DNA from: Pelagibacterium flavum
GTDB taxonomy: Bacteria; Pseudomonadota; Alphaproteobacteria; Rhizobiales; Devosiaceae
Assembly (NCBI RefSeq): GCF_025854335.1
Contig: NZ_CP107716.1
Location: 3,589,001 to 3,653,000, forward strand
Length of the DNA stretch: 64,000 nucleotides
Direction: 5' to 3'
The notes below the pieces were generated by a model. It was given only the letters and a program-made list of their open reading frames with translations, was not told where the DNA came from and made no database searches. The first letter of the stretch is position 1; every line of letters begins with the position of its first letter. This document shows, piece by piece, positions 19,865 to 38,138 of the stretch. Position numbers and translations under genes: made by a program.

Positions 19865-19865
19865 T
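19848..19865 (+). repeat. Attachment core 1 (tRNA-Ser 3' end)
   Basis: TCCCTCTCTCTCCGCCAT, overlapping the acceptor end of tRNA-Ser. The same 18 bases occur at 38090-38107 and 17-18 bases at 46861. This is the left boundary of element 1. Confidence 0.9.
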
Positions 19866-19951
19866 AATGCCCCACCAGATCGATGAGTACGCCGAGATGC
19901 CCGGAAACCAAGGGGTCTGACGGTAGTCCAGTTCCAGACTCTCTGCAAGTT

Positions 19952-19983
19952 GTGCCCCCGAAAGTGCCCCCATGTGTGCCCCC
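19952..19983 (+). repeat. Three GTGCCCCC repeats at 12-bp spacing (candidate integrase arm sites, left end)
   Basis: GTGCCCCC starts at 19952, 19964 and 19976, exactly 12 bp apart and about 90 bp inside the left core. Matching GTGCCCC sites at 38006 and 38018, also 12 bp apart, and an inverted copy at 38071 lie at the other end. This is the arrangement of arm-type sites for a tyrosine integrase. Confidence 0.65.
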
Positions 19984-20053
19984 GTGAGGGGACTAGACGT
20001 GCTTCGATTGGGGTGTCAGAGATGTGTGGCATGTGACTTGGAGGGGCTAGTCG

Positions 20054-20359
20054 ATGCCAGCAACCGCCCGCGTTCTGACCATCATTTGTCTTGCGCTAGT
20101 GTTGATAGCGGGGAGTGCTACGGCCTGGGCCACTCGCTATTCCGTCGAGAACGTCGCGACGAACGGCTTGATGTTTTTGGTGGTGGATCGATGGATGCAC
20201 ACCGCGTCACTCTGCACCTTCAAATCGGGCGGCGGGACTTCATGCCTACCGCCAGGAGAGTTGGCACCATGTCCAGGCCCACCTGGTCCCGACTTCCTAG
20301 ATGAGGTGGACCGTCGCATTGCGGAGGAAAGGGGCATCGTTCTAAGCGAGTGTCGATAG
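20054..20359 (+). CDS. Hypothetical exported or membrane-anchored protein
   Basis: A 101-residue protein. Its N-terminal hydrophobic helix (TARVLTIICLALVLIAGSATAWA) ends like a signal peptide. The soluble part has two cysteines (LCTF and SCLPP) and a final SECR. A GGAGGGG ribosome site precedes ATG 20054. I do not recognise a family. It is the first gene inside the left end of element 1, a position often used for cargo. Confidence 0.6.
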   Translation: MPATARVLTIICLALVLIAGSATAWATRYSVENVATNGLMFLVVDRWMHTASLCTFKSGGGTSCLPPGELAPCPGPPGPDFLDEVDRRIAEERGIVLSECR

Positions 20360-20394
20360 AGTCGATGGCGTCGCCTGAGCTTATTAATTCCCTC

Positions 20395-20470
20395 CACTAG
20401 ACACGATATAGGATCAACCATTAAGTGGTTAAATTCGTAATGTGCTAACATAACAAATTGACTGGTCCAC
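20395..20470 (+). promoter_or_regulatory. AT-rich promoter gap with a small inverted repeat
   Basis: The gap before the winged-helix gene is AT-rich. It contains AACCA TTAAG TGGTT, a 5-bp inverted repeat at about 20417-20431, which could be the operator of the regulator that follows. Confidence 0.35.
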
Positions 20471-20824
20471 ATGTCTCATTTCCCCGTTCTGCTCCGTCTC
20501 ATTCGTGCCAACCACCTTTTCATGGACCAGCAACGCGAGATCAACGCGGCATTGATGAATACCTTCTTGGGCGTCGCCACCTATTGCAGCGATCCTGACA
20601 TCACCACCCCATTGTCCCTCAAGGAGCTTGCAAAGCGCTTGGACCTGGCACCGTCCACAGTGTCGCGACATCTGAGGTACTTGGGGCACTGGCAGCGCAA
20701 AGGTGTGCCGGGTATGGGCCTAGTCGAGACCCATCGATCCCCGCTTGATGATAGGGCAAAGCTTGTACGTTTGACGCCAGAAGGTGAGGCGCTATTGGTC
20801 CGCCTAATGCGGATACTCGATTGA
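20471..20824 (+). CDS. Winged-helix MarR-like regulator
   Basis: A 117-residue protein with a clear winged helix: LSLKELAKRLDLAPSTVSRHLRYLGHW (recognition helix near residues 50-64) and the wing GLVETHRSPLDDRAKLVRLTPEGEALLVRLMRIL. The DDRA-K-LTPEG motif is the MarR wing signature. It sits at the left end of element 1, upstream of the convergent recombinase gene, and may control element gene expression or excision. No ligand pocket is obvious at this length. Confidence 0.82.
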   Translation: MSHFPVLLRLIRANHLFMDQQREINAALMNTFLGVATYCSDPDITTPLSLKELAKRLDLAPSTVSRHLRYLGHWQRKGVPGMGLVETHRSPLDDRAKLVRLTPEGEALLVRLMRILD

Positions 20825-20897
20825 CCATGCAAAAGGCCCCCAAGGCGGGAGAACCTTGAGGGCCACAATGTGTGGTGGGGATGTGGTCGTCTATGCG

Positions 20898-21527
20898 TCA
20901 GTCCTTCCCCTCCTCCGACTTCTTCTTGAGGCGCGACAAGGTACTCTTGGAGGCTCCAGTATCCTTTTCGATCTGGCTCCACGTCTTCCCCTCGCGAAAC
21001 ATTCGCATGATGCGTTCGTTGCGTTCGGTATTCTCGGGGCGGCCCTTATAGCGGCCAGCAGCCTTGGCTTTTGCTATGCCCTCTTCCTGCCTACGCTTAC
21101 GGTCCTCATAGTCCTTACGTGCCATAGCGGCCAGCATGTCGAGCATCATACTGTTGATGGAGTCGAATATCCGGGCTGTGGTATCGTCGCCGTTGACCTT
21201 CGTGAACTGGTGGGAGGTTGGAAGGTCCAGGGCAACCACCTTCACCTTGCGGTCCCTGATCTCCGCTTTGAGGGCCTCCCAATCGTCGGCATTGAGGCGG
21301 CTAAGTCGGTCCACCTGCTCGACCAATAGAATGTCGCCAGCCTTGCAGTCATCGAGGAGGCGTCGGAGTTCTGGACGCGATGCCCAATCCTTCGCGCCGC
21401 TCTCGTTCTCAATGTAGGTGGAGGCGATAGTAAGCCCATTGTCCTTGGCGAACCGCTCTAGTGCAGCCTTGGCGCGAGTGGCGTCCTGCTCCTTTGTGGA
21501 GGCCCTGAGGTATGCCCTAACAAACAT
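20898..21527 (-). CDS. Small serine recombinase (resolvase/invertase family)
   Basis: This 209-residue protein opens with the resolvase N-terminal domain: YLRASTKEQD with the nucleophilic Ser near residue 9, and VEQVDRLSRLNADDWEAL near residue 67. The E-helix region LAAMARKDYEDRKRRQEEGIAKAKAAGRYKGRP is followed by a helix-turn-helix (KTWSQIEKDTGASKSTLSRLKK). It could invert or resolve DNA within the element. I start it at Met 21527, since the longer frame would run into the upstream gene; the remaining overlap is 11 bases. Confidence 0.9.
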   Translation of the reverse strand: MFVRAYLRASTKEQDATRAKAALERFAKDNGLTIASTYIENESGAKDWASRPELRRLLDDCKAGDILLVEQVDRLSRLNADDWEALKAEIRDRKVKVVALDLPTSHQFTKVNGDDTTARIFDSINSMMLDMLAAMARKDYEDRKRRQEEGIAKAKAAGRYKGRPENTERNERIMRMFREGKTWSQIEKDTGASKSTLSRLKKKSEEGKD

Positions 21528-21834
21528 GGTCCATCTCCACCTCCCGTGCTTTGCGCCAAGCGTCAAACCTCATGCGCTCCTTGGCGATTGCCTCCAGGCG
21601 TTCCCCGTAGGGCAGCCCGAAACACCCTGATGGCACACAGAGGTTGTCGTTAAAGATGGCCTCTTGCCACGTCTCGTCTGCCTTAACGTACCAATCCCAC
21701 AAGGTCCCGCCTTGTCTGTGGTGCTCAAGGTAGGCTTCGAACTTCTTGGGCTCTAGGTATCGTTCAGCGAACAGCGCAGCCTCCTCGATAGTCTTAGGGG
21801 CCAGCCCGTTAAGTCTCATAAGGTCATCGGTCAC
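21517..21834 (-). CDS. Hypothetical phage-type protein upstream of the recombinase
   Basis: A 105-residue soluble protein, acidic at its N-terminus, with aromatic stretches (LWDWYVKADETWQEAIF). I recognise no domain. A GTG start at 21834 has GAGGAG at the right distance; a TTG at 21849 is the alternative. It overlaps the recombinase gene by 11 bases, so the two are probably translated together. Confidence 0.6.
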   Translation of the reverse strand: MTDDLMRLNGLAPKTIEEAALFAERYLEPKKFEAYLEHHRQGGTLWDWYVKADETWQEAIFNDNLCVPSGCFGLPYGERLEAIAKERMRFDAWRKAREVEMDHVC

Positions 21835-21915
21835 CGTGCGTCTCCTCAAAGGGCGAAAACAAATTGATGGCCCAAGGGGCAGGACATTCCCCGCCCCTTA
21901 GAGTTGTGCATCGTG

Positions 21916-22131
21916 TTACTGACCAGAGTGGGCAGCAACTTTAGGCAGGACACACGCTTGGAAGGTGAAGGGGCCAGCCGATACAGTGAGCGGCGCTGTT
22001 TTGTACTGTGCAGGTTCAATGCGCCACTGGTAGCTGTCCACCTCGGTCAAGCGGCGGGTCTGCTCAAAATAGAAGTCCAAGCGGAAAGGACGGCCCAAGA
22101 CGTTGGCGATGGTTTCGAGTGCGATAAGCAT
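21916..22131 (-). CDS. Hypothetical small protein
   Basis: A 71-residue protein (MLIALETIANVLGRPFRLDFYFEQTRRL) with a good AGGAG ribosome site before ATG 22131. No recognised family. It heads the minus-strand run 22131-20898 that ends in the serine recombinase. Confidence 0.55.
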   Translation of the reverse strand: MLIALETIANVLGRPFRLDFYFEQTRRLTEVDSYQWRIEPAQYKTAPLTVSAGPFTFQACVLPKVAAHSGQ

Positions 22132-22506
22132 GGTGTTGCTCCTGGTTGAGTGGTTGCCCTACATGTTCGTTTAGGGTGGTGTCATTTATAGAACTTCTAT
22201 TTGGGCCCGTCAACCCCATTTATCGAACCTAATTTTCGTCCTTCTCTTAGGGTGTACCTTATGGAACCCCGCAAGAGTGCGCGAGGAGGGGCAGACAGAG
22301 TGGTGACATTGAGGAATGTGTGAGAGCCAAATGGGCAAGTAGGCGGTGGATACCGGGCGGGGTCTCCAAGTTTAGGGCCACTCACCAGACGTGATTTATG
22401 CGGGCGCACCACCCCCACCGGGGGGAAACGCGAACGTCCCCACGTTTATACTAGACTTCACGTGATCGACCCTTAAACTTGATCCGGTAAGTCGAAAGGC
22501 GGTTTA
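22132..22506. promoter_or_regulatory. Divergent intergenic region with three TTATNGAAC repeats
   Basis: No gene is visible in this 375-base gap between the minus-strand recombinase block and the plus-strand cargo genes. TTATAGAAC (22186-22194), TTATCGAAC (22220-22228) and TTATGGAAC (22259-22267) recur in the same direction at 34-39 bp spacing. The first and third are preceded by TTAGGGTG. That arrangement (TTAGG upstream, then TAT-GAA) recalls SP6-type phage promoters, so these may be promoters for the element's RNA polymerase; repressor operators are the alternative. Confidence 0.45.
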
Positions 22507-22674
22507 ATGACGTTTGAACTTTGGATAGCTTTAGCCGGAGTGATTGTGACGGGGATCGTTGGGTTTGGTGGTTGGTTTATTTCGAAAGGCAAGGGAAAAG
22601 CTCAGCATCAAAAGGTTGGAAAAGGAGGAACTGGCATCCAAGCCGGAAGAGACATCAATCTCAAAGACAAATGA
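22507..22674 (+). CDS. Small membrane-anchored ORF ending in an IQAGRDIN motif
   Basis: A 55-codon frame from ATG 22507 to TGA 22674. An N-terminal hydrophobic helix (LWIALAGVIVTGIVGFGGWF) is followed by a basic linker and GGTGIQAGRDINLKDK. The IQAGRDIN motif is typical of the region just before the conserved domain in LPO_1073-type proteins. The larger gene below overlaps it in another frame. It may be a separate anchor peptide, or the true 5' end of that gene joined by frameshift. Confidence 0.5.
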   Translation: MTFELWIALAGVIVTGIVGFGGWFISKGKGKAQHQKVGKGGTGIQAGRDINLKDK

Positions 22675-23710
22675 TCAGGCTCAACAAGCTGGCCCTGGGG
22701 CTGTAGCTATTCAAGCAAACGGTTCTGTTAATTTCGGCATTAGCAAGCAGGATATGGCCGAGATACTTGCGGAAGTCGTTCAGCTTCAGGTGCGTTATCA
22801 GGCAGAGGCCGAGCGAAAGGTCGAAGACAGGCTTTCAGAAATTAGGGAAGACCTGCTGCTGACCTTTGCTGATGAGAAGAAGGCAAACTCTGAGGCCTTC
22901 CGCGACCCCGATTTCCAGTACATGCTCGGAGAGACCCAGGCGGCATATGCGAGGTCCGGAAACCAGACAGTAAAAAACACCTTGGTGGACATCATCGCTC
23001 GTCGCTCCAAGGCCGCGCCTCAATCACGAGAAGCACTCACGCTCAATGAAGCTTCGTTAGTCGCACCTCGTCTGAGTGAGGCAGACTATGCCGTGCTCTC
23101 GCTCTGCTACATGCTTCGATACACTGTCCACACCGGGATTCAAACGCCCCATGAGTTACAACAGTACCTGAGGACCATGGTGATGCCCCATGTGGGGATT
23201 GCTACGAGCAGCCAATCTACGTTCTGGTTCTTGGAGGCTCAACGCTGCGGAACGCTTCAAATAGACCAACTGGAGCTTAGAAAGTCGTTCGTAAGGAAAT
23301 ATCCCACCACCGTTGCGCTAGGTGCCAAAGAGGAGGAGTTTCTAAAGTTGGTGGACGAGACAAAGCAAGATATTGTGCGTTCGCTCCTCCGACCTTCCCG
23401 CAGAGATCGGACGCTGCGTCAGCCGCGAAATGCTTCTAAGGATGAGTTCTTAGACCACGCTAAACGAGCTGGACTAAATGATCAAGAAGCTGCGAATATC
23501 TGGGCCTGCTATGTTGCAACTATACCTTCTGGCGACGATTTTGTGGCGATGCTGGAGCAAGACGTTCCAGGAATAGGCAGATTGTTCGAGCTGTGGGAAA
23601 ACAGTCCCATGAAGCAGTTTGCCCTTAATGCAACCGGCATCGCGATTGGTCATGCCAACGCAGTGCAGGCAACCGGTCTAGACGCAGAGTTGTCCGTTTG
23701 GATTAATTGA
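22559..23710 (+). CDS. LPO_1073/Vpar_1526-like hypothetical protein (cargo, possible defence)
   Basis: A frame of up to 383 residues. A short N-terminal region with GPGAVAIQANGSVNFGI is followed by a helical region (DMAEILAEVVQLQVRYQAEAERKVEDRL) and the block FRDPDFQYMLGETQAAYARSGNQTVKNTLVDIIARRSK that I associate with the LPO_1073/Vpar_1526 family of unknown function. There is no ATG near the start: TTG 22559 or GTG 22568 are the options, both inside the 55-codon ORF. AAGGAGG at 22622 precedes only a CTG. Start and possible frameshift are unresolved. It is the only large plus-strand gene of element 1, as expected for cargo. Confidence 0.7.
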   Translation: MGLVVGLFRKAREKLSIKRLEKEELASKPEETSISKTNDQAQQAGPGAVAIQANGSVNFGISKQDMAEILAEVVQLQVRYQAEAERKVEDRLSEIREDLLLTFADEKKANSEAFRDPDFQYMLGETQAAYARSGNQTVKNTLVDIIARRSKAAPQSREALTLNEASLVAPRLSEADYAVLSLCYMLRYTVHTGIQTPHELQQYLRTMVMPHVGIATSSQSTFWFLEAQRCGTLQIDQLELRKSFVRKYPTTVALGAKEEEFLKLVDETKQDIVRSLLRPSRRDRTLRQPRNASKDEFLDHAKRAGLNDQEAANIWACYVATIPSGDDFVAMLEQDVPGIGRLFELWENSPMKQFALNATGIAIGHANAVQATGLDAELSVWIN

Positions 23711-23756
23711 ACACGAGGCGGCCACCATGTGCCGCCCCATGGTTCGCGGGGCTCGG
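23711..23756 (+). terminator. Hairpin between convergent genes
   Basis: GGCGGC CACCATGT GCCGCC (about 23718-23737) forms a 6-bp stem between the stop of the cargo gene and the stop of the 1205-residue gene. The T-tract is weak; it could serve both directions. Confidence 0.4.
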
Positions 23757-26700
23757 CTAGTAACCCATCGACCTCAGTAGCTCCTCAAGGTTACCTTCAG
23801 GCCGCGACTGCTCCTGCTTGGCCTGGAGTTGGGACCTCACATCCATCTGAGATTGGGCCAATTGCTGGCGAAGCTCGGGGTAGTTCCTCAGCAACATCGC
23901 CTTCCCCGCTTGGCGGAACTGGGAGACCACCGACATGATGGCCGCGATCTTTGTGCCACGCACACTGGGGTCACCGTCCACGAGCCGCTGATAGGTTTCG
24001 GACGCGATGAGCCTCGCCAAGGCTTCCTTCAGGGTAGTCCCCGTGCCCGGATCGGCCACAAGCTGCTGATACACATCGTAGGCATTGCGGCCATCGGAGA
24101 GTGTCACCTTCCGAAAGTCCACCCCGTTGTGGTGGGGAGATGGGGGTCTAATGCCATTCCCGGTCTCGAAGATCAGTCGGTTGTGTTCCGACTCCACCAG
24201 GTCCACGTCTCCATCGGTCATGAGGCCGCGCTTCCTCCAGATGGGGTCACCAAAGGAGTCGCGCTGAGGAGGGATCGTCTCTGAGTAACCGGGCATCCCA
24301 GCCATCAGCCGGTCCAGCCACTCGCGGGCATCTCGCATGTATGGGTCTTGATTGGCATAGTTGCGCCAAGCCGAGGAGCCGGGGATGAGATTGCTCCCCA
24401 AGTTGCCGAACCACTTCGAGATGTTCTGACCATCGGTGCCAGGATTGCTCAGGGCATCGAGCGCCTGGTTGACGTTCATCAGGAAGGTCTTCTCCGAGAA
24501 TGAGTTTGCCAAGGCAACGGCCACAGCCACCGTTCCTCCTTCAGCCTTTCGGCTGCCTGGGTTGGTCACCATCATGTCCACAAGGTCCGCAACCATGGCG
24601 AACGGCATTCCTATGGGGTCGAACCGCCCGATAGGGAAGTAGGTCTTCTCCCCGTTGGCACCATCGAGCACGATGCTGTAGGGCTGCCATCCCGTAGCCA
24701 TGAGCTGCTTCTTGAGTTCGTAGTCGGTGGGACCAGACCCCGTGATCCGACCGCTCAGCGCAAGGTTGGCTGCGGTGGCCATGAACATCGAGCCAAGCGC
24801 CATCTGTCCCATGGCGTGGGCTTGTGCTTCTGACCCCATCTTGCCCCTGAGCATCTGCACGTACTCCTTCTGGAGCAGGTTCAGTGCGGGCGTCATCTTG
24901 GTGGCATACCGCAACACGTTGATTGGGGTCTTCACGAACGGGAGGATGAGCGCCAGAGGCGGATAGTTGTGACGAGCGTTCTGGATCGTCTTCCCCACAG
25001 ACTGGAAGTTGCCCCAGGTCGGCACACTGAGGTCCTGCTGGAACGTGGTCACCTGAGCTTCCAACAGAGCCTTGTCGTCTATCGCCCTCCCGTCTGGCGT
25101 GAAGGCTTCCTTGAGGCGCTTCTCGATGTGCCGATGGAGGTCTGCCCCGGCAAGTCCGGCATCGACGCCCTCGACTGAAGCTCGGGCCTGAACGACCGCC
25201 CGGTAGCGGAGCTGCTTGATGAACTCATCGACCGCACCGAGTGAACGCGTAGGAAGACCCACAGCGGTTCGGTAGCCTGCCTTGGCTCCTTGTGCCGCTG
25301 CAATCCCGGCCTGCTTGTAGTTGGCCGCCACCAGCCCGTTGTAGAAGAGGTCCCAGGTGTCTTTGATCGGCTTCATTGCGATCTGCGGCTGCTGGACCCG
25401 TGATGCCACCTCAAAGTACTCGTTGGAGTAAGGGGCCAACACCGAGTCAGCCTTGAGGAAGGCGTCCACCAATCCCTTCCAGGCGTCGGACACCGAGTAG
25501 AACGTATAGGCAAACTCTTGGGCGGCCTGCCGTCTAACAGCGGACCCACGGGAGCCCTGAAGCATCGACCCGATCATCTTCTCCACGGGACGCGCCACCA
25601 GCATGTAGAGGTTGGTGGAGGTGTTCACCGCGTGGGTCGTCCAGTTCCACAGGAGGTTGTTGGTGAGGAGGAACGTGCCCTCATCTACCACCTTTCGCCA
25701 GAACGCAGGGTTGGCAGTCTCGCGGAGCTTCTTGAGGTCCCCACCGGTAGAGCTGAGCACCTCGGCCAGCTTCTCGGGAGGGATGTCTTTGAACCTTGCT
25801 ACGTCCTCAGGCGTGATGGCGAACTCTCTGCGGTTGCGACGAAGAGCGCGGCCCGAAGCTGAGCGAATGGCGTTGCCTTGGGCCATCATGTCGGCTGCTG
25901 CCTGGAACCGTCGCTTCAGCTCGGCATTTGCGGCCTCACGGCTTCCTCCGAACTCATCGAGCATTCCGGCCCTGATCTTGGTGCCCAGTGCAGCCGCGTC
26001 CTCAAAGAGCTTCTTGGAGATGATGTAGGCGGCCTCCATGTCTGCCACCATGTGCGTGGCCCGTTCACCAGACCTCGCAATCTCTCCCATGACAATCTCT
26101 GGGTCGTGTCCGAACAGCTCGGCGCTCTCTTCCACCATCAAGCGGTGCTTGGCGTCAGTCAGAACGGTACTACCCTTGGCCAATCCCATCTGTTCTTGGA
26201 GTGACCGCGAGACGTTTCGCACTAGGGTCTCGACATCTTCGGTGGAGTTGAGCTTCTGCCATGGGAGGTTGGCCCGAGCGAAAGCGTGACCCGCCTGCTG
26301 TGCGACCTCACGAGACCCGTATTGCCGAACAGCCGCCACGTCTGCCTCAGTACCGCGAATGATCTCTTCGATGTCGATGTCTTCGGCCTTGACCGTGGGC
26401 TGATACCTTTGGTCCTGGGGCCGCAGGGGGACCGCCTGAGCATCGGAGCGTACTGGTTCGATCTCGACCTCAGCGACATTCCGTGTGCCTGTGGGGACAT
26501 CCACCCCGTCCTGCATCCCATCCCCAGCCCTGACTGTGATCTGGGGAATACCTTCGGGCATCTCCACGTCAGTCCTTGGAGCCGAGCCTGGGCCATCCTG
26601 CACCTGACGGCCTTCGATGGCATCCATGGCGCTCTGGTCATCGGTACCGCGCTGGGCCTGAAGCTCTTCCACCTCACGCATGGCCTCTTGGGCTGCCGCT

Positions 26701-27374
26701 TCGTCACCTCGACGCAATGCCTTGATGACCCGGAGGCTGCCCTCGAAGATGCCCACCAGAGCGAGGTCCATGCCGATGCCTTCGAGGGCGTTCTTGAAGC
26801 GTCCCTCAATGGCTGAGTCCCCTTCCTCGGCTGCGAGATACTCCGTCACCGGGTTCCTGAGGAACTCGTGCTGTTGGATGAGGTTGGAGAGGCGCTCCTC
26901 GTGAGGGTCGAGGGCGAGGAACCCAGCGAGGGCACCCCGGCCCACCTCCCAAGCACCTCGGGCAACACCGCCTGTGGCCTTGAGAGGTGCCATGAGCTTT
27001 CCAGCCCCGACGAGCCCAGCGCTAAACTGCGAGATGTCGCCCACCACCGAGTTGACCACACTGGCCTCATCGAGCTGCTGGGTGAACGCCTCGTGCTGCT
27101 GGCGGAGCCACGACTTGTCCTCTTGGGCAGGCTCCCCGAAGAAGAAGTCCTTGGTCTGGAAACCCGCCTCCACGACACCCGAGAGGAGCGAATTAGTGAG
27201 CCCAGAAAGACCTCCTGTTCCGATCTCTGGTGTCTCGGTCTCTTGCTCCTCCGTTGGCGCGGTGGCCACGGGTGCGGGCTGCACTGAGGGGCTGCTTGGT
27301 TGAGAGGGAGGAGTGATGCCCTTTGACTGGGCAATCTGCTGGTCGATCTGATCCAGCATCGCTTCGTTAAGCAT
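23757..27374 (-). CDS. Giant phage internal-virion-like protein (1205 aa)
   Basis: A 1205-residue protein. The N-terminus is low-complexity (Pro/Ser/Thr/Glu-rich to about residue 55). The middle is largely helical, with acidic linkers around residues 250-340. Near residues 570-640, KVVDEGTFLLTNNLLWNWTTHAVNTSTNLYMLVARPVEKMIGSMLQ is a long amphipathic to hydrophobic stretch, and another is near 860-900. Size, helical content and position last in a T7-type gene order suggest a gp16-like ejection protein. I see no transglycosylase motif here; that activity lies in the neighbouring gene. A membrane-active ejection role is inference. Confidence 0.65.
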   Translation of the reverse strand: MLNEAMLDQIDQQIAQSKGITPPSQPSSPSVQPAPVATAPTEEQETETPEIGTGGLSGLTNSLLSGVVEAGFQTKDFFFGEPAQEDKSWLRQQHEAFTQQLDEASVVNSVVGDISQFSAGLVGAGKLMAPLKATGGVARGAWEVGRGALAGFLALDPHEERLSNLIQQHEFLRNPVTEYLAAEEGDSAIEGRFKNALEGIGMDLALVGIFEGSLRVIKALRRGDEAAAQEAMREVEELQAQRGTDDQSAMDAIEGRQVQDGPGSAPRTDVEMPEGIPQITVRAGDGMQDGVDVPTGTRNVAEVEIEPVRSDAQAVPLRPQDQRYQPTVKAEDIDIEEIIRGTEADVAAVRQYGSREVAQQAGHAFARANLPWQKLNSTEDVETLVRNVSRSLQEQMGLAKGSTVLTDAKHRLMVEESAELFGHDPEIVMGEIARSGERATHMVADMEAAYIISKKLFEDAAALGTKIRAGMLDEFGGSREAANAELKRRFQAAADMMAQGNAIRSASGRALRRNRREFAITPEDVARFKDIPPEKLAEVLSSTGGDLKKLRETANPAFWRKVVDEGTFLLTNNLLWNWTTHAVNTSTNLYMLVARPVEKMIGSMLQGSRGSAVRRQAAQEFAYTFYSVSDAWKGLVDAFLKADSVLAPYSNEYFEVASRVQQPQIAMKPIKDTWDLFYNGLVAANYKQAGIAAAQGAKAGYRTAVGLPTRSLGAVDEFIKQLRYRAVVQARASVEGVDAGLAGADLHRHIEKRLKEAFTPDGRAIDDKALLEAQVTTFQQDLSVPTWGNFQSVGKTIQNARHNYPPLALILPFVKTPINVLRYATKMTPALNLLQKEYVQMLRGKMGSEAQAHAMGQMALGSMFMATAANLALSGRITGSGPTDYELKKQLMATGWQPYSIVLDGANGEKTYFPIGRFDPIGMPFAMVADLVDMMVTNPGSRKAEGGTVAVAVALANSFSEKTFLMNVNQALDALSNPGTDGQNISKWFGNLGSNLIPGSSAWRNYANQDPYMRDAREWLDRLMAGMPGYSETIPPQRDSFGDPIWRKRGLMTDGDVDLVESEHNRLIFETGNGIRPPSPHHNGVDFRKVTLSDGRNAYDVYQQLVADPGTGTTLKEALARLIASETYQRLVDGDPSVRGTKIAAIMSVVSQFRQAGKAMLLRNYPELRQQLAQSQMDVRSQLQAKQEQSRPEGNLEELLRSMGY

Positions 27375-27389
27375 GGATGTTCCTTGAAG

Positions 27390-30341: not shown

Positions 30342-30440
30342 ATGAAACCTTGATTGGACAAAGCGGTATCGCCTCCCGGCCCGTGCAGGCGGACTGGGAG
30401 TGGTGCTGCTTGATGTTTGAGGGTGGGGGAGCTGTTGAGC

Positions 30441-30989
30441 CTAGAAGGACTCGGTGTCGTCGCTTGGAAGGCCGACCTTCAGCTCTTGAACGTGGGGATC
30501 GAGGATGGGCTGACCGGAGGCAACCACCTCCATGGCCCAACCCCCGGAGAGTGTCTGGGCGAACTCGGACGTTTGACGTGCGCGGCGGTGGCCCCACGGG
30601 GATTTCGAGGCCGCTTCAGGGTGGATCGTGATACGGCCATCCTCCTGAGCCTGCTTCAAATGCTCCAGCATCATCCGCGCTTCAGGTGTGCTTGCACGTG
30701 GCCATCCTGCATGGAGCCGATCCGCGTAAACGATCAGTTTCTTTTCACCAAGGCGCTGGTCGATGACGAATTGCAACAAGGCGGCCTCCAACAGGCGGCA
30801 GTCGGTGGAGTATCCGGCCAGCCAAAGGTCGATAACACCGTTGCCTCCCCACAGGACGGCCCCCACGCCACCGGGGTAAACCGGGCTGACCGTTTCGTCT
30901 GGCCGAAGGTGAGTGGACTCGATGATTACGCGGAGGGTGTCGGCGCTTCGTATTTCGTTGGGGTCTAGTTCGATGGGTTGGCGGCTCAA
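30441..30989 (-). CDS. Hypothetical protein, paralogue of the 33182-33745 gene (RNase H-like fold?)
   Basis: A 182-residue soluble protein with a TTG start supported by AAAGGA six bases upstream. The core GAVLWGGNGVIDLWLAGYSTDCRLLEAALLQFVIDQRLGEKKLIVYADRL matches, block for block, GAIVWGSG, LWLGGY, LIDHHARGSKLVVHTKGL in the gene at 33182. The pattern of a beta-hairpin, an acidic helix and a beta-strand ending in an acidic residue resembles RNase HI, but the catalytic set looks incomplete. The two paralogues bracket the polymerase-like gene. Confidence 0.6.
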   Translation of the reverse strand: MSRQPIELDPNEIRSADTLRVIIESTHLRPDETVSPVYPGGVGAVLWGGNGVIDLWLAGYSTDCRLLEAALLQFVIDQRLGEKKLIVYADRLHAGWPRASTPEARMMLEHLKQAQEDGRITIHPEAASKSPWGHRRARQTSEFAQTLSGGWAMEVVASGQPILDPHVQELKVGLPSDDTESF

Positions 30990-31025
30990 GGTTGGTTGTC
31001 CTTTCGTGTTTGGGAGGGGTGGCGA

Positions 31026-31340
31026 TCAGTCGTCGCCCAGCATTGTGTTCCTCCAGGTTTGGGTGACCTTGAGCGGGCCGGGACGGCGGACCTTTATGCA
31101 GCCGACATCGCCTGGACTTGGCGTCACAGTCTCCACGCGGATGAAGTCATCACTACTGCACCGAGAGCATGGGAAGGGGACCGCAAGGGCTGGTCGGGAT
31201 TCGCCCAATAGTTTCGCCAGGTCGGACGCTAGGTAGAAGATCGTACGGTTACAGCTTCCACAGCGCACCTTGATGAGCTGCCCATCGGCGGCAGCCTGGC
31301 CCAGTGAGTAATATTCGTTGGAACGGCGTCGGGCTCCCAT
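31026..31340 (-). CDS. Small zinc-ribbon protein
   Basis: A 104-residue protein with two CxxC pairs (RCGSCNRT near residue 28 and PCSRCSSD near residue 58), the spacing of a zinc ribbon. The rest is basic and beta-rich (CIKVRRPGPLKVTQTWRN). ATG 31340 has an AAAGGAG site; a longer frame to 31637 lacks coding character. Such proteins in phages often bind DNA or RNA polymerase. Function is unknown. Confidence 0.72.
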   Translation of the reverse strand: MGARRRSNEYYSLGQAAADGQLIKVRCGSCNRTIFYLASDLAKLLGESRPALAVPFPCSRCSSDDFIRVETVTPSPGDVGCIKVRRPGPLKVTQTWRNTMLGDD

Positions 31341-31856
31341 CAGAGACTCCTTTCTGCTACCTTTTACGAGGAGAACGAAAAGAGAACAATGGGTGACGGC
31401 GTGGACGGAATGCTTGGAGTTGGCATCAGGTTGTATCGTGGGGCTGGGGCATGTTGTTCTGGCCTGCATGTTGGCATTGCGTTTTCCATCGGACTTAAAA
31501 ACCAATGGGAGGAGACCCCAAAACACCCCCGTTACCTCCTCAACCAATAACGGAAACCCTGAGATCGGTAACAGAAGTCTGGCCCCAGGTTTCGCGACTT
31601 GGAGAGTGGGGAGGAGTGGGACGTGAGGTGGTGACATCGAGGAAGGGAGAGGTTCACAGACCCCTCATCCCCTATCAGCTCAAAGGAGGAGCTTGGTGTC
31701 TTACCGGTACAGGTAGTCAGTCACTCTGAGCACAGACGTAGAGCTGAGCATTAAGCTATGTGCTTCAAGTGATGGAGGAGATGGAGGTCTAAACAATCCT
31801 CCCATCCTTCAGGTCTTAACACTTGGAGGGACACAGAGAGGGGCATAGGGGGGGAG
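31341..31856. other. 516-base gene-free stretch between zinc-ribbon and polymerase-like genes
   Basis: No convincing coding frame is visible on either strand. It contains GTTACC/GGTAAC inverted copies (31531 and 31566 areas), several GGAGG-like runs, and the sequence GTGGTGACATCGAGGAA (near 31630), which nearly repeats GTGGTGACATTGAGGAA near 22300. It may hold phage promoters, a transcript leader or an origin. Confidence 0.45.
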
Positions 31857-33185
31857 TTAGCGAACATAGTTCTTTATCGATACGATAAGCGGCTTCCCTA
31901 GGACATGTTCCGACACTTCGCCCATCGTTGCTGCACACTCCTCAATGCATTTCGACTGGGCGATCAGACCGTCATGAAGCGGCAGTGCAACCACACCGCG
32001 AGAGATGAGGCGGAGCAATACCTCGACCATGATGCTGCTCTCGATGAACATCAGCTTCATGCCGGTCCCACGGCCAAACAGGTGGGCAATAGCAGGATGC
32101 TTCCGTGACATCGCCTCTTGGACCTTACGACCTGTCCAGCCCTCCAGGCGGAGATGCTCCAAGGACTCGGGCAGTTGACGCATTGGGCCGTTCTTGCAGA
32201 GCAGCGCCGACATGGCTGCCTTCGTGTCCTCCCGCGCGAGACCATCCACTGAGTATGGGTCGCCAGGTGGCAACTCGATGCCAGCCTCAGCGTAACAAGC
32301 CTGAACGAAAAAGCCGCTGAAGTCGGCCTCGGCTACAGGGTGACTATCGATTGTGATACGTCCCCGCTGCTCCTTGCGGAGATATTCCCAGAAGCCATCA
32401 TATAGCCGACCGTGACGATCAAACCTTGGCGGGTCCTGTGGATGCTCGATCTGAAAACGCCGGGTGAGATGGACGAGCGGCTGCTGCTTGCCGTCGAACT
32501 TAATGTCCACTGAGCCAAGAGCTGTGTTGATGGCTGCCATCTCTGTTCGCATCAGTCTGGTTTCATCGGTGTCCTCGTACTCGACCAGAACCTTGGGCTT
32601 TTTCTCCCAATGTCGCCGTTTGTTAGTGGTCGGCTCAGGGGCTTTCAGGATGACCGTCTCGGCACCGGGGAGCCTCGTCAGCGGCAGCGGCACACCACCC
32701 GGAGCAAGGTCCCGAGCCAATGAAAAGGTCGGCCATATGGTCGTCCTACCGCCTCTGCGAGACCCTCGCTGTCTGGTAATCAATCCGAGGCTCTCCATCT
32801 CGTCCACGACCTTGAGGAGAACCTCTTGGGGCTGGGCCTGCCTATGGTAGCGGGTGGGGCGGAGCTTGCCGTTTATGTAGACCCTCGTACCCGTCTTCTT
32901 GGCTGATATTGCGATGCCCGCTTCGTTCCGTCCCAATGATTGGAGCACTGCGAGGTTTGCCATAACGTTGGCCAGGGTGTCGCGGCGACGTTGCGTGGCG
33001 TCTGAGCGTTGCCGCTTTGGACGAGGGCATGATGCCTCCATCAGTTCGAAGACCTCGTTGACCAGAGCCTCGAAGTCCTCACCCAATGGCACGAGCCAGG
33101 GATCATGATGCAGGTCGTCCCGCCGTTGGGAGGGTACCGAGGCCACCCGACGTTTGGTCCTAGGTGGAGCCTCAAGGGTTGTCAT
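31857..33185 (-). CDS. Compact protein with family-A polymerase-like palm motifs
   Basis: A 442-residue protein. The N-terminal 200 residues are basic, with a possible winged helix (VLLKVVDEMESLGLITRQRGSRRGGRTTIWPTF). The C-terminal half shows the ordered motifs of the PolA/T7-RNAP palm: motif A EADFSGFF (near 283), DPYSVDG, motif B-like R-x3-K-x10-NG (EDTKAAMSALLCKNG, near 320-331), KHPAIAHLF, and motif C LPLHDGLI (near 400). No exonuclease domain is seen. ATG 33185 overlaps the upstream stop by four bases (ATGA). I infer a nucleic-acid polymerase or primase-like replication protein. Confidence 0.55.
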   Translation of the reverse strand: MTTLEAPPRTKRRVASVPSQRRDDLHHDPWLVPLGEDFEALVNEVFELMEASCPRPKRQRSDATQRRRDTLANVMANLAVLQSLGRNEAGIAISAKKTGTRVYINGKLRPTRYHRQAQPQEVLLKVVDEMESLGLITRQRGSRRGGRTTIWPTFSLARDLAPGGVPLPLTRLPGAETVILKAPEPTTNKRRHWEKKPKVLVEYEDTDETRLMRTEMAAINTALGSVDIKFDGKQQPLVHLTRRFQIEHPQDPPRFDRHGRLYDGFWEYLRKEQRGRITIDSHPVAEADFSGFFVQACYAEAGIELPPGDPYSVDGLAREDTKAAMSALLCKNGPMRQLPESLEHLRLEGWTGRKVQEAMSRKHPAIAHLFGRGTGMKLMFIESSIMVEVLLRLISRGVVALPLHDGLIAQSKCIEECAATMGEVSEHVLGKPLIVSIKNYVR

Positions 33186-33745
33186 GCAACAGGTTCCTCT
33201 TCCCAGCTCCTCACGACCACATGCCAATCTGGATGGTCATCCCTGAGGTCGAGGAAATGGTCCCTGAGCCTAGCCACCTCGGGCAGACCTGCTCGGGCAA
33301 CTTCTCGTGCTGCCTGAAGGCCGCCGTATACCCAGTCCACCGGGTTGACGACGAGCTGCTTTTCGCGCCTCGCCTCCGCTAGGGGCTTCATCAAGTGAAA
33401 GCCCTTCATCGGCTTTCCGGCGCTGGTGAGGCCTCCACGTTTGGCAGCCTGGATGGTATGGTTCAAAGGCGCTTGTAGCCCCTTGGTGTGGACAACGAGC
33501 TTGCTCCCACGGGCATGGTGGTCGATGAGGTGCTGGACCATCTCAGCACGAAGGAAGTCATCAACGGAAGCGTAGCCGCCGAGCCATAGAGCGTCCTTTC
33601 GGCCACTCCCCCATACGATGGCTCCAACGCATATTGCGTCACCGTCATGCTCGGTGGTCAGGATGGCGCGGGCCTTGGTCTCATCAGCCACGTCAGGTGG
33701 CGTGAAGTCTTCAGGGACTTGTGGTGGCATCATATCCTCAGTCAT
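33182..33745 (-). CDS. Hypothetical protein, paralogue of the 30441-30989 gene (RNase H-like fold?)
   Basis: A 187-residue protein sharing the G-x-WG, LWL-GY, LID and KL-V blocks with the 182-residue gene (here GAIVWGSGRKDALWLGGYAS). A C-terminal extension (WVYGGLQAAREVARAGLPEVARLRDHFLDLRDDHPDW) is unique. ATG 33745 is chosen, though Met5 or Met6 (33733, 33730) have a slightly better GAGGA spacing. It is translationally coupled to the palm protein by a four-base overlap, which hints at a joint role in nucleic-acid processing. Confidence 0.62.
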   Translation of the reverse strand: MTEDMMPPQVPEDFTPPDVADETKARAILTTEHDGDAICVGAIVWGSGRKDALWLGGYASVDDFLRAEMVQHLIDHHARGSKLVVHTKGLQAPLNHTIQAAKRGGLTSAGKPMKGFHLMKPLAEARREKQLVVNPVDWVYGGLQAAREVARAGLPEVARLRDHFLDLRDDHPDWHVVVRSWEEEPVA

Positions 33746-33881
33746 CGCGTTGTGGTTGCGCAAGCAATTCGGAGGCGGCCATTGATGGGATACGACGCTC
33801 GACACCTCAAACAATAGCGCAGCGTAACTCGCCCCCAAATGACCGACGACTTGTTGCGAACGGTTCTCGTTTATCCTTTGG

Positions 33882-33892
33882 GAGGGAGTTAG
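33882..33892 (-). promoter_or_regulatory. GAGGGAGTTAG motif between RNA polymerase and next gene
   Basis: Minus-strand CTAACTCCCTC is identical to the copy at 36487-36497 upstream of the RNA polymerase gene. Both are preceded on the minus strand by GCCACAC. A near copy (GGGGGAGTTAG) ends at 31860. It is a candidate promoter, terminator or processing site of the element. Confidence 0.4.
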
Positions 33893-33909
33893 TGTGGCGA
33901 GTGGCCGGA

Positions 33910-36426
33910 TCAGGCGAAGAAGTAGGACGCCTCGGTCACTTCCTCGATGTTGAGAGACCCCATGTCGGGCAGTGCAGGCCAAGCCGTTCCGGGCTCCCCC
34001 ACCTCCATGCAGGCTTCGAGGAACTGCTCAAGGACCGGCCACCTGTACGTCTCCACGAAAGCGTGGCGAATGCACCGAGTAAGCGTCTCCATGTCCCCGG
34101 CGAGGGTTCCGTAAGCATCGTGGATGACGGTCATCGACCTCACACCCTCTCGTTTCATCAACGTTGCGCAAGTCATGAGTGCCGAGGCGTCCATCGAGTG
34201 GACGAAGTTGGGGGCGATACCTCGTGCTGCGGCCTTGGTGTCTAGCGTCGGCTGGTGCTCCCAGTTGGTGAGCTGAATACGTTGGCCGTCGATCCTCGTC
34301 TCGATCTTCTTCTGCTCACGTTCACCGTAAAAGTGTCGGACGACAAAGCCTGCGGGAGTCTTCCAGTAGATCGGCCTGCCCGACTGGGACGCAATCTTGG
34401 AGCATTGCTGAAGCCACTTCATGACCTCCCGCGCTTTCGACAGCTTCCTTTCCACTGCCGTCCACATCAGCCCCACCAGGAAGCCCAGTGCCGGATAGCG
34501 GTGCTCTTTGGGGATGACCTGGTGCTTGGGGTCCACCTTGTCGAGCCACTCCTTGGTGTATTCCCTGTATGCCTGCCGAGTTCCTCCATAGGGCAGGATC
34601 ATCACAGGACGCTTCGTGACTTCGCGAGGCACCTTGCCGTTGAAGAGAGCCAGCCACATGTCAGCGTGTTGATCTCCCTGACGTTCCAGCAACATGTCCA
34701 TCAGCTCCTCGGCCACCTCCATGTAGATGTCCCTAGGGCTGGCACCATTCACAAGGTTCACTGAGGTTCCGCCTATGTGGTCCCGAACCATGGCCGATAA
34801 GTGCTGGAGCCCGTTGCAGGTCCCATCGACCCGGACTGGAAGGTGGCTCACGAAGTCCGGACCCTCACGTAGATACCCCGCGTACTCAAGGACTGCCGCG
34901 AGGGCCTGCCACGCAGAGTCCCCATCGTCAGCATCGGCCCACCTTCGGTCGGACATCGGGTCCTTCGCGATGGACAACCACATGTCCTTGCGTTCGGTGA
35001 CCCACGCCACGCGGTCCTCAAAGCTCTCCTTGTCGAGGCCGAATTGGTTGGCGAGGTGGATGGCAAGCCAAGTTCCCCCGTGTTCCCCAACTGGCTTTCC
35101 TTCGGAGAAGGTAAGGAGCCCTCGGTGCAGGTCATTACCTTGTGGGCTGAGGTCCGACACGATGGGATACATCCGGCTCCGGAAGTCGAGCATATGAGGA
35201 AACCAAAACTCTGGCTCTTGGTTCATCCTCTCTGCGGTGTTGAGGGTCCGTTGGGCCGCAAGGCACTGGGAGACACGCTTGGCGTTTCTGGTGTTGGTCT
35301 CTGAGGCATCTTCGCGCCATTCCTTCAGGGCAGCTTCGTCCTCAGTGTCAGGCCTAGGGTCTACCTTCTCTGGTTCCTTTCTTGGGAGCCCAGCGATGGC
35401 GAGGTCCTTCTCCCAGACCTCCTGTGCGACCTCCAGAACCCGCTCGTTGACTGCCCATCCGGTATCCTGAATGTAGTTCAGCGCCTCGTAGACTAAAGGC
35501 ATATCGAGCGCGGTGTACTCATCGATTGCCTTCTGGCGCTGCTCCTCGTGTTGGGCCTTGAACCTGATGAGGAAGGGTGAGCGGGCGAAGGGGGTCCAGT
35601 ATCCGCCATCCTTAGGTCCGTCCCAAGGCTTGGGCTTGATGACAGTCGGTAGGTATGCTGGCCAAAAGACGAGTTCATCATCCATGGCATTGCCCAGCCA
35701 AGTGATTATTTCCGGGTCTGCCTGAAGCTCCATCGGCCACGTTTTGTTGGCGCTAAAGCCACGGGGCTTCTGTTGCCCTTTCACAATGCGAAACCGCCCT
35801 GTGCCTTGGATCACACAGTCGATCATCTGCAGGCCAACCCGCCGCCTCTCCTCTTCGGTCCACGCCTGATAACCGATCCGTTCGGCAACGTGCTTGTTGA
35901 AGACCGTCACTCGGGAGCGCCTCATGTGGGCGGCGTTGGAGCCCCGAGTTTTGAAGATGTGGGTCATGGCTTTCCACGAGTCCTCATCCTCCTCCATCCA
36001 AAGGGCGGCTTGAGCTTCGTGCTCGATCCAAGTGCCGATCTCTAGGGCCATTCCCAAGACTAACCTCCGCTCGACCCCGAGCATCCTGAGGATTGCTCTC
36101 AAAGCGACCAGTGCTGAGGTTTCAGGTGGGACCTGCTTAAGCCGTGCCAGCGCAATGGGCTTCGTGCCTCTACGTGATGAGGCCAGTTCGATCCACTTCT
36201 CCAAGTTCTCCGCTACGGGTTCGATGAACTCCTTTAGGAGGGACCGATACGGACGGAGCCTCGTCATGTCCTTCTTCTCGTGGGCCTTGTTGACGCGGGA
36301 CTGCATCCTGTTCCGTCCCTGCGCCAGCATCTCCTGTTCGATGTTCATCTGGTCCTCCCATCTGTCCTCCAGATAGGGACCTTCAAGTAGTCCATCAGTT
36401 GTTGGTGTCGGTGCGATTTGCGACAT
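33910..36426 (-). CDS. T7-type single-subunit DNA-directed RNA polymerase
   Basis: An 838-residue phage RNA polymerase. Palm motif A VRVDGTCNGLQHLSA is near residue 530 and motif B VTKRPVMILPYGGTRQAY near 602, with the catalytic Lys and Tyr-Gly. GIAPNFVHSMDASALM and motif C VIHDAYGT near 764 carry the second metal-binding Asp. The C-terminus ends SYFFA, recalling the essential FAFA foot of T7 polymerase. Length fits (T7 883). It should transcribe the element from its own promoters, independently of host RNA polymerase. ATG 36426 has GGGAGG; the gene is intact. Confidence 0.96.
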   Translation of the reverse strand: MSQIAPTPTTDGLLEGPYLEDRWEDQMNIEQEMLAQGRNRMQSRVNKAHEKKDMTRLRPYRSLLKEFIEPVAENLEKWIELASSRRGTKPIALARLKQVPPETSALVALRAILRMLGVERRLVLGMALEIGTWIEHEAQAALWMEEDEDSWKAMTHIFKTRGSNAAHMRRSRVTVFNKHVAERIGYQAWTEEERRRVGLQMIDCVIQGTGRFRIVKGQQKPRGFSANKTWPMELQADPEIITWLGNAMDDELVFWPAYLPTVIKPKPWDGPKDGGYWTPFARSPFLIRFKAQHEEQRQKAIDEYTALDMPLVYEALNYIQDTGWAVNERVLEVAQEVWEKDLAIAGLPRKEPEKVDPRPDTEDEAALKEWREDASETNTRNAKRVSQCLAAQRTLNTAERMNQEPEFWFPHMLDFRSRMYPIVSDLSPQGNDLHRGLLTFSEGKPVGEHGGTWLAIHLANQFGLDKESFEDRVAWVTERKDMWLSIAKDPMSDRRWADADDGDSAWQALAAVLEYAGYLREGPDFVSHLPVRVDGTCNGLQHLSAMVRDHIGGTSVNLVNGASPRDIYMEVAEELMDMLLERQGDQHADMWLALFNGKVPREVTKRPVMILPYGGTRQAYREYTKEWLDKVDPKHQVIPKEHRYPALGFLVGLMWTAVERKLSKAREVMKWLQQCSKIASQSGRPIYWKTPAGFVVRHFYGEREQKKIETRIDGQRIQLTNWEHQPTLDTKAAARGIAPNFVHSMDASALMTCATLMKREGVRSMTVIHDAYGTLAGDMETLTRCIRHAFVETYRWPVLEQFLEACMEVGEPGTAWPALPDMGSLNIEEVTEASYFFA

Positions 36427-36486
36427 TGATCCTCCCAAGTAAAGGCTGGTGGATCGTGCAAATGGGCCGAATTAATTGTTGTTCAA

Positions 36487-36497
36487 GAGGGAGTTAG
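36487..36497 (-). promoter_or_regulatory. GAGGGAGTTAG motif upstream of the RNA polymerase gene
   Basis: See the copy at 33882. Here it lies about 60 bp upstream of the polymerase start, in a 214-base gap (36427-36640) with no gene. A host promoter for the polymerase gene is expected somewhere in this gap (AACAACAATTAATTCGG near 36468-36484 is AT-rich). Confidence 0.4.
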
Positions 36498-36640
36498 ATC
36501 GTCGTGTGGCGCATTGAGAAGACGTGGGAGATTTGTGATCTGGAGCCTGACTAGGTAGCCAAAGACTTGGCGTGGACGCGTCGCCACAAATAAACCGAAG
36601 GCAGGTTGAGCGGGTGCCACAAACTTTTTTTCGTGTGTGA

Positions 36641-38026
36641 CTAGCTTTTTGCCTCGTTTGGTAGCTGAACCGCTTCCACACACGCCTTGAGGGCGGCGAT
36701 GGGCGACTTCCCTGGATAGGTCTTCATGGTCAACTCTAGAGGTCCAGCGTCCTTTGTCCCGTGTCCGACCAGCTCAGATAGGGTCCATGCCGTGAAACCC
36801 TGAGCCCCAGCATTGAGGGCGTCCCGTGCCTTGGCGTGAAACCACCTTCGGAAACTATGAAAGTCCACGTTGGATTGTCGCTTGCCGTTGGGCCGCTCAT
36901 CGATACCGAGACCCCTTCGGTAGTGGCCGAAGGCCTTGCTTGCGGCCTGAGACCTAAGGTCCGTCTTTTCCAGTAGCTCAGCCTGGGGGTCTATCAGGTA
37001 GTCCAGCGCGTCCTTCCCCTCGGAGAGCCTTGCGACGGTTGCCTCCAGCGCCGAGTGTATGGGCACCCTACGGACTGCATTGACGGTCTTCCCTGCTCGG
37101 ATACTGAAAATGCCGTTCGCAGTGTCTTGCACTCTGAGGAGATAGCACTCTTCGATCCTCATCCCACTGAGAGCGGCTATCGTCATGAGGTCCACCATGT
37201 GAGGACTGTTGGGGTTCCCGGTCAGAAGTCTCAAAACCTCGTCGTCGGTGAACGGGCGCTTACCCTCGTCAGGCTCTAGCACTGTGCCGCGTGGCGGTGG
37301 CTTTGCCTTGGGAAGCCGTCCCAGCCAAGGGGATGAGTTGCGAGGTCTATGTCCATGCTCTTCGAGCCAGACCCAATATCCCCGCACAAAGGAAAGATAC
37401 TTGCTGGCCGCCTTCCTGCTCAGGCTCCGAGTGTTGACCATATACCTCATGAAGTCGCCAGCTACGGGCTGCGTAACTGAGTCGAGGGTGGGAGGCAGAC
37501 GCTTCCGCATCATCCATTCCTCAAGCCAGCCCATGACCCTCTTGAGGTCAGACGCGGACTTTGGACGATATGCCGTGTCCTCAATGTAGGCATCGAGGTA
37601 GTCGTTGATGGGGATGGAAGTGCCCTGTGCCGCCGAGACAAAGGGCTTCGCCAAGTGGGTGCTCTCGCCCTTCGACAGTTCCTCGGCCCGGTGGATCATC
37701 TCATAGAGTAGGTCGTCCCGTTCTTCGGGGGCAGCTTGGGAGTACCGATTACGCAACACGCGAGCCTCCTCCCAGACCGTCGCGTCGGGTGAGACACTAG
37801 CAACTGCCTCGGCAATCATCCTCTTGAACCGCGAGACGTGCTCCCCCTTCAGGAGGTTCGCTGTCTTGAGGTTGCCCGTCCCTAGCGTCTGCCTCAGGTA
37901 GAGCTTGTTGTCGAAGAGATGGCGGACCTTCTCAGGTATTCTGACCCTCACGCGCCACTGGTTGTGGTGCATCTCTAAATATTTTTTGTCGTCTGCCAAG
38001 CCGTTGTGCCCCGTATTGTGCCCCAC
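36641..38026 (-). CDS. Tyrosine recombinase / phage integrase of element 1
   Basis: Up to 461 residues. An N-terminal DUF6538-like segment (YLEMHHNQWRVRVRIPEKVRHLF) is followed by a SAM-like core-binding domain (residues 135-250) and a catalytic domain with Arg in SGMRIEE (near 288), Lys in RAGKT, HSFRRWF (H-x2-R), VGHGTKD and nucleophile Tyr in MKTYPGK (near 434). The GTG at 38026 makes the first ten codons coincide with the arm-site repeats; TTG 37999 or ATG 37972 are plausible real starts. It sits about 65 bp from the right core and should catalyse integration into tRNA-Ser. Confidence 0.92.
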   Translation of the reverse strand: MGHNTGHNGLADDKKYLEMHHNQWRVRVRIPEKVRHLFDNKLYLRQTLGTGNLKTANLLKGEHVSRFKRMIAEAVASVSPDATVWEEARVLRNRYSQAAPEERDDLLYEMIHRAEELSKGESTHLAKPFVSAAQGTSIPINDYLDAYIEDTAYRPKSASDLKRVMGWLEEWMMRKRLPPTLDSVTQPVAGDFMRYMVNTRSLSRKAASKYLSFVRGYWVWLEEHGHRPRNSSPWLGRLPKAKPPPRGTVLEPDEGKRPFTDDEVLRLLTGNPNSPHMVDLMTIAALSGMRIEECYLLRVQDTANGIFSIRAGKTVNAVRRVPIHSALEATVARLSEGKDALDYLIDPQAELLEKTDLRSQAASKAFGHYRRGLGIDERPNGKRQSNVDFHSFRRWFHAKARDALNAGAQGFTAWTLSELVGHGTKDAGPLELTMKTYPGKSPIAALKACVEAVQLPNEAKS

Positions 38027-38078
38027 AAAGTAGGCGCTTACCCCTGTGTTTCAAGGTTTCCGGGCCTACTGGGGGCAC
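38006..38078. repeat. Candidate integrase arm sites, right end of element 1
   Basis: GTGCCCC at 38006-38012 and 38018-38024 (12-bp spacing) and inverted GGGGGCAC at 38071-38078, close to the core at 38090. They match the triple repeat at the left end in sequence and spacing. Confidence 0.6.
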
Positions 38079-38089
38079 TAGGCGTGCCG

Positions 38090-38107
38090 TCCCTCTCTCT
38101 CCGCCAT
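38090..38107 (+). repeat. Attachment core 2 (junction of elements 1 and 2)
   Basis: TCCCTCTCTCTCCGCCAT, identical to the tRNA-Ser end at 19848-19865. It serves as right end of element 1 and left end of element 2; the following T is shared with core 3. Confidence 0.9.
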
Positions 38108-38138
38108 TCCCATTATATTATTCAACATTTTCAACCTC

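Follow-up and report, generated by a model that had tools for sequence, protein, structure and literature searches.

A tRNA-integrated element of Pelagibacterium flavum with a T7-type RNA polymerase and ejection proteins is a probable satellite of T7-like phages

As outlined in the introduction of PMC10803314, the P4-like, PICI, cf-PICI and PLE phage satellites average 9.5-18 kb and carry defence cargo in some cases, PICMIs are small elements of the Vibrionaceae that lie next to fis and have three core proteins, and VEIMEs and tycheposons are named among satellite-like elements. Satellites are defined in a 2026 abstract as being without viral structural genes (PMC13376191). Here we describe an 18,242-bp element, at positions 19866-38107 of a 64,000-nt window (the whole stretch of Pelagibacterium flavum DNA analysed, part of a 3.93-Mb single-contig genome, whose positions give all coordinates below), that carries two ejection (internal virion) proteins and a T7-type RNA polymerase (RNAP) of its own. 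Integrated at a tRNA gene, this element is probably a satellite of T7-like phages, one that would replace the helper's ejection proteins in stolen particles; whereas descriptions of known satellites have them remodel, fill or make capsids, this one would swap the cell-entry part of the virion.

The element is inserted at tRNA-Ser(GGA) (19775-19864, plus strand, ARAGORN) between two perfect 18-bp cores, TCCCTCTCTCTCCGCCAT, on the plus strand: the left one (19848-19865) is exact and overlaps the 3' end of the tRNA gene, and the right one (38090-38107) has 0 mismatches to it. In 100 shuffles the mean number of such matches was 0.00, even with 2 mismatches permitted. On the minus strand the order is tyrosine integrase (36641-38026; Pfam E 1e-6, phrog_1 E 2e-21), T7-type RNAP, p266, p456, p203, p182, a gp15-like gene and a gp16-like gene; beyond these come the 383-aa gene (plus strand), some small genes, the serine resolvase gene and, again on the plus strand, the regulator p117. 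A preliminary description had placed an integrase, an RNAP, two giant genes and a polymerase-like gene between perfect 18-bp cores, and its coordinates were exact. What we find is thus a discrete attL-attR unit with its own integrase and no virion-building genes, yet with two ejection proteins, as general descriptions of satellites would have it for all but the last point.

By description, VEIMEs and tycheposons, marine integrated elements moved in particles, may be comparable with the element. With the P4-like, PICI, cf-PICI and PLE satellites the element shares site-specific integration, an integrase and replication functions of its own (putative here), while their core genes differ from those of the element. 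The hallmark of the P4-like satellites is the primase-helicase alpha together with the Sid/Psu/delta genes, and none of these families appeared in Pfam and PHROG scans of the element's 14 genes; cf-PICIs make capsid, whereas no capsid or terminase family was found in the same 14 genes. Like PICMIs it is an integrated element without capsid-remodelling genes, but it sits at tRNA-Ser(GGA) and not next to fis, and the abstract and introduction of PMC10803314 name no ejection proteins for PICMIs. No satellite with internal virion or ejection genes was found in the literature searched, which left out most subscription papers and all of bioRxiv, so that absence in print is not established.

The absence of a shell, already claimed in the preliminary description (no capsid, portal, packaging or tail gene), was upheld by the profile scans of all 14 called genes, which found no capsid, portal, terminase or tail family. 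The module that marks a T7-like prophage (DNA polymerase, primase, portal, capsid, tail and terminase) was represented by 0 markers in the element.

What the element does have of T7 type is intact. The RNAP gene (33910-36438, minus strand; single-subunit, 842 aa from a TTG or 838 from the next ATG) matched the RNA polymerase families of PHROGs (E 4e-231) and Pfam (RNA_pol, E 4e-95), and retained what we take to be the catalytic motifs when aligned with three phage RNAPs, in agreement with the earlier claim of an intact T7-type enzyme. A candidate promoter was found with the help of phage G497 (viral contig L097), whose coding strand repeats a motif like AATnCnGCCACnTGACACACTAA about 10 times. 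With a position weight matrix built from eight of these sites, a single site in the element, at 33889-33911 on the minus strand, scored highly (22.3); the runner-up reached 11.0, and the maximum over 100 first-order random sequences was 20.2. The RNAP gene and this promoter-like site overlap at the 3' end of the gene, which is also where one G497 copy lies; in reading order the site precedes p266, p456, p203, p182, gp15 and gp16.

The 1205-aa gp16-like protein (23757-27374, minus strand) matched the PHROG 'internal virion protein' (phrog_6651, E 1e-46) and, by tblastn, the annotated 'internal virion protein D' of phages; among 50,697 phage records 93 were matched, all below 60% identity and mostly from marine phages. 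The 983-aa protein encoded next to it (27390-30341, minus strand) has endolysin-type PHROG matches in its C-terminal part, which is L-Ala-D-Glu peptidase-like, and its predicted model, with a mean predicted local distance difference test score (pLDDT) of 66.5, retrieved in Foldseek the T7 core-protein entry 9jyy (E 0.006, probability 0.99) and T7 gp15, 6ysz (E 0.06, probability 0.99), both at low TM-score. Homologues of this protein stand between gp14 and gp16 in related phages, and this gene order supports its assignment as gp15-type; for the larger protein the same gp14-gp15-gp16 order in relatives accompanies the homology to annotated internal virion proteins. The two giant genes had been called internal-virion-like beforehand, and that reading holds by homology for one and is supported by gene order for the other. 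Profile searches of gp16 and p456 against solved structures gave nothing below E 0.03. The ratio of nonsynonymous to synonymous substitution rates (dN/dS) was 0.19-0.30 in six comparisons of gp16, gp15 and RNAP (0.24 for the element's gp16), with dS high (1.35-1.67) in five of the six and with phage as well as island branches covered. In the peptidase domain of the element's gp15 (27390-27750) there is a five-residue insertion missing from two aligned homologues having the domain.

T7-like phages with related versions of these genes do exist. They comprise three viral contigs, L097 (45.2 kb), L099 (47.3 kb) and L100 (46.1 kb), and L002, a T7-like prophage of Nitratireductor sp. B36. Identity to the element's RNAP is 65%, 54%, 56% and 55%, respectively, and to its gp16 59%, 53%, 44% and 42%; all four also share the gp15 homologue and p117 (49%, 46%, 35% and, in a stretch of L002, 43%), and in L097 the p117 homologue lies just before the integrase and RNAP, while the promoter motif and its place are as in the element. 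At least some of the T7-like phages that the element would exploit are probably temperate: the integrase of L097 was found by scan, and Rhizobium phage RHEph01, a more distant T7-like relative, has an annotated one. A scan of genome contigs for relatives yielded one locus, the L002 prophage, and two viral-contig searches gave no relative. Two pairs of matches were closer to the element, one with RNAP at 75% and gp16 at 77% (44,978 bp, a phage-like size) and another with RNAP at 93% and gp16 at 98% (19,197 bp), the two proteins of each pair being presumed to lie on the same contig.

These phages differ from the element in a reciprocal manner: they have portal, capsid, tail, large-terminase, primase and DNA polymerase genes and no p456, and the element has the reverse. 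Specifically p456 was not found in any of the four viral contigs with structural genes (L097, L099, L100 and the distant L101) nor in the L002 prophage, and neither was the p456/resolvase backbone found in the donor phages. The preliminary description had held that relatives with the same order plus a capsid block would betray a simple deletion; such phages exist, but they are without the p456/resolvase backbone, and the element is therefore not a donor phage from which a segment was lost. As the main account, simple deletion within a T7-like prophage was accordingly rejected. In its broader form, in which a defective T7-like prophage lost its capsid, tail and packaging genes and the remainder persists by chance, this explanation draws on the homology of RNAP, promoter, gp15, gp16 and p117 to T7-like phage counterparts, and on decay elsewhere, the gp16 of locus G477 being broken and that of G494 a 50-residue remnant. 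We consider it improbable: the backbone missing from the donor phages recurs in islands at many tRNAs, an island in Devosia has gp16 without gp15 or RNAP, the sole T7-type structural matches in 13 islands are gp14, gp15 or gp16, and the long frames of the element are intact. That these unbroken frames speak against random decay had been proposed earlier, and the recurrence of relatives with their own integrases and ejection proteins bears it out.

The islands just mentioned are defined by p456 (31857-33227, minus strand), a small putative polymerase with a family-A palm. With the window's genome counted each time, profile searches of 397 genomes from the order found p456 in 36 (about 9%) and gp16 in 13, and p456 was present in 19 of 289 genomes of the class. 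We read 45 loci, 44 from genome searches plus the window, most p456 loci of the 289-genome class set not being among them. A tRNA 3'-end repeat of 16-50 bp bounds the island in 26 loci, and the Devosia island (72-bp repeat, 13,927-bp unit) brings the bounded islands to 27 of 45, spanning 8.1-21.8 kb; the other 18 loci, of which G266, G387 and G477 carry gp16, were excluded from island counts. BLAST clustering of 35 loci placed p456 in 32, an integrase family in 32 and a resolvase family (F2) in 31. The window's element, with integrase, serine resolvase (20898-21566, minus strand; Pfam Resolvase E 2e-25) and p456 between tRNA-anchored repeats, belongs to this family. The comparison with relatives that the preliminary description called for thus shows that p456 islands recur at many tRNAs, 13 of the 27 with ejection proteins.

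Those 13 islands, with gp14-, gp15- or gp16-type proteins, are the window's and G062, G169, G205, G238, G331, G484a, G494a, G490, G216, G355, G484b and G494b; without the window's island and the two that gp16 alone had revealed, the count is 10 of 24. None of the T7-type markers (portal, scaffold, capsid, tail tube A/B, fibre, large terminase, DNA polymerase and primase) matched in any of the 27 bounded islands in a BLASTP screen at E 1e-4 with 109 sequences, from T7-type phages only and with no small-terminase marker; the same set did match at G399 and G481, both of them loci of T7-like phages. A profile screen of 16 loci took frames of at least 100 residues by the longest-frame rule, core families excluded, and its input of 116 proteins comprised 43 of 59 and 69 of 121 listed frames plus four picked by eye, the omitted frames being apparent antisense shadows, families already covered or frames already scanned. 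For 45 of these proteins no structural family was present among all 14 PHROG and 14 Pfam families, and for the other 71 none was present among the matches listed (25 of 50 PHROG and 25 of 26 Pfam families).

If each of the 10 islands had kept one gene, drawn by length from a set of T7-type structural genes with an ejection share of 0.40, the chance that all kept ejection genes would be about 1e-4; since several islands are related (e.g. G355/G484b/G494b, G484a/G494a and G169/G205/G238) the chance is nearer 0.002, a figure that assumes some seven independent island lineages, itself an estimate. Ejection-bearing islands are also larger (median 18.3 vs 13.5 kb without, p 0.0004), for which the extra genes account in part. 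A gp16 search of 201 genomes yielded two besides the window's genome, Devosia and G169, both with islands in which p456, gp16 and the resolvase are present and no RNAP, gp15 or other structural match was found. The best score of the G497-type promoter in the Devosia island was 10.4, within chance, the scan covering the part of the island in L007. The 13 gp16 genomes of the order comprise two with T7-like phage loci that have structural genes (G399 and G481), one 20.7-kb contig (G232) with gp16 as sole marker, and ten, the window's included, whose loci are without T7-type structural markers beyond the ejection proteins; the remnant of G494 and the broken copy of G477 are among these ten.

A tree of 21 gp16 proteins (14 island, 7 phage) showed the two labels intermixed, with 5 changes, at least 4 of them forced by well supported branches; five of the island labels rest on a p456 homologue assigned to the same contig by inference, and both outgroup phages sit on long branches. 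As 112 of 500 shuffled labellings needed as few changes, island and phage labels are hardly clustered. The gp16 of the Devosia island is the sister of that of phage G497 with full support, the two being 83-84% identical. Between the element and four phage sequences no shared packaging signal was recognised, the longest exact DNA shared being 44 bp inside gp16 (G497) and the next 22 bp.

Ejection genes in shell-less islands could also serve as a weapon, with the islands being satellites or defence islands that use gp15/gp16 to poison helper virions or to block superinfection. Defence genes are indeed frequent as island cargo, 10 of the 13 islands have a single full ejection protein (either gp16 or gp15), which fits one misfit part as well as a replacement, and gp14 was seen in one island only. 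We regard this as unlikely, though it is the strongest of the alternatives: gp15 and gp16 of the element are full length, gp15 retains wall-degrading-type domains, dN/dS is well below 1, and in that one island, G490, gp14, gp15 and gp16 are adjacent, with PHROG internal virion protein matches and from a different phage lineage. The cargo at other loci includes AbiU2, AbiTii, AbiJ, MmeI, Old, PD-T7-4, Drt6, type I and IIG restriction and antirepressors, and defence genes as cargo are usual for satellites. One gp15-bearing island, L033, has a type IIG restriction enzyme and an anti-phage Drt6-type reverse transcriptase (397-3327 and 6812-8524).

Large proteins delivered along with DNA are known from other mobile elements, and the giant proteins might escort DNA in a manner unrelated to virions, the element moving by a conjugative helper or a gene transfer agent. 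This is very improbable: the Pfam and PHROG scans of the 14 genes turned up neither a relaxase nor a mating-pair family, the predicted model of gp15 resembles the T7 core protein, and the nearest gp16 relatives found are in T7-like phages and islands.

We therefore return to a satellite of T7-like phages, which is how the element had first been described. The structured, shell-less mobile element stands, and potential helper phages of the donor lineage exist; the private RNAP, however, is exceptional, present in 1 of 27 bounded islands, the window's own. The anatomy is real and recurrent, and from it we infer induction, helper use and packaging, which would run as follows. Upon helper infection or induction the element would excise and replicate with p456, perhaps together with helper proteins, and would make its own RNAP, which would fire the promoter at 33889-33911 and so drive the genes that follow it on this strand, p456, gp15 and gp16 among them. 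The heads, portals, tails and terminase of the helper would package the element, and its gp15/gp16 would fill the inner core or take its place, the stolen particle then opening cells through the satellite's ejection channel; p117, common to the donor phages, may tie the element's switch to that of the helper. More tentatively, and with rather less confidence than for the element itself, satellites throughout the Alphaproteobacteria may steal T7-like shells and bring their own ejection machine, acquired repeatedly from the phages they exploit, with the member described here adding a private RNAP and promoter that would place both the particle and the first transcription under satellite control.

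Several points weigh against this interpretation. Excision, packaging, the helper and the virion content are deduced indirectly; no gp14-like match was found in the element by the BLASTP marker screen, and no packaging or capsid-size gene was recognised in it. The promoter is a single site and its matrix comes from one phage. The viral contigs are possibly fragments, so that the absence of p456 from them is not final. Among the islands, 14 of 27 have no ejection match, and ejection proteins are hence not a core function of the family; HK97-type capsid genes lie near two islands, the window's and G498. Apart from the window's genome, none of the p456-positive genomes among the 397 (35 in all) gave a T7-type RNAP match, and a resident helper is therefore not the rule.

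If the interpretation is right, building the shell and opening the cell would be the work of different parties, and it would explain how satellites might enter hosts, or withstand conditions, that the helper does not. It would also provide natural helper/satellite pairs of ejection proteins for studying the T7 ejection channel, and a setting for p456, an unannotated polymerase carried by about 9% of the order's genomes sampled.

A resident helper in the host genome was considered and rejected, the element's RNAP being the sole RNA_pol match in the 3.93 Mb. Nitratireductor sp. B36 has both a 9.7-kb p456 island at tRNA-Thr, in which no ejection match was found, and its T7-like prophage on another contig (L116-L117). 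The G498 island (L111, 1-10000), with p456, gp16 and gp15 in swapped order, shares its viral contig with HK97-type capsid and terminase genes. An RNase H gene was present in three islands checked (L063, 19150-19674; L067, 18465-19004; L045, 5322-5720), directly after p456 in two, which suggests a primer-removal partner of the p456 polymerase.

As for the remaining genes of the element, p117 (20471-20824, plus strand) is a winged-helix regulator (phrog_9665, transcriptional regulator) with homologues in 5 islands, this one counted, in all three donor-lineage viral contigs and in the Nitratireductor prophage stretch, and with no match in G490 or F19-type islands. Both p110 (21517-21849, minus strand; Pfam/PHROG scans and island comparison) and p266 (33182-33982, minus strand) have homologues in the Devosia island; the true start of p266 is probably the ATG at 33745, giving 187 aa, and p182 (30441-30989, minus strand) is similar to it (phmmer E 9e-7 in a small set). 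For p203 (31026-31637, minus strand) there was no match in Pfam, PHROGs, PADLOC or the neighbouring island proteins searched. The 383-aa cargo gene (22559-23710, plus strand) matched phrog_19542, of unknown function, and had no PADLOC match; PADLOC was run on five window proteins and matched none.

Next to the element a second integrated element lies in tandem (38108-46877); the core at its far end, the third, has one mismatch (46860-46877). Besides an integrase of its own, this second element has an HK97-type major capsid gene (43810-45180) and an adjoining tape-measure gene (41691-43634). The possibility of an overlooked capsid gene in the 19866-38107 element was dismissed, none being there and the HK97-type gene belonging to this neighbour. 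The second element is separate from the first and not of T7 type, and looks like a remnant siphophage.

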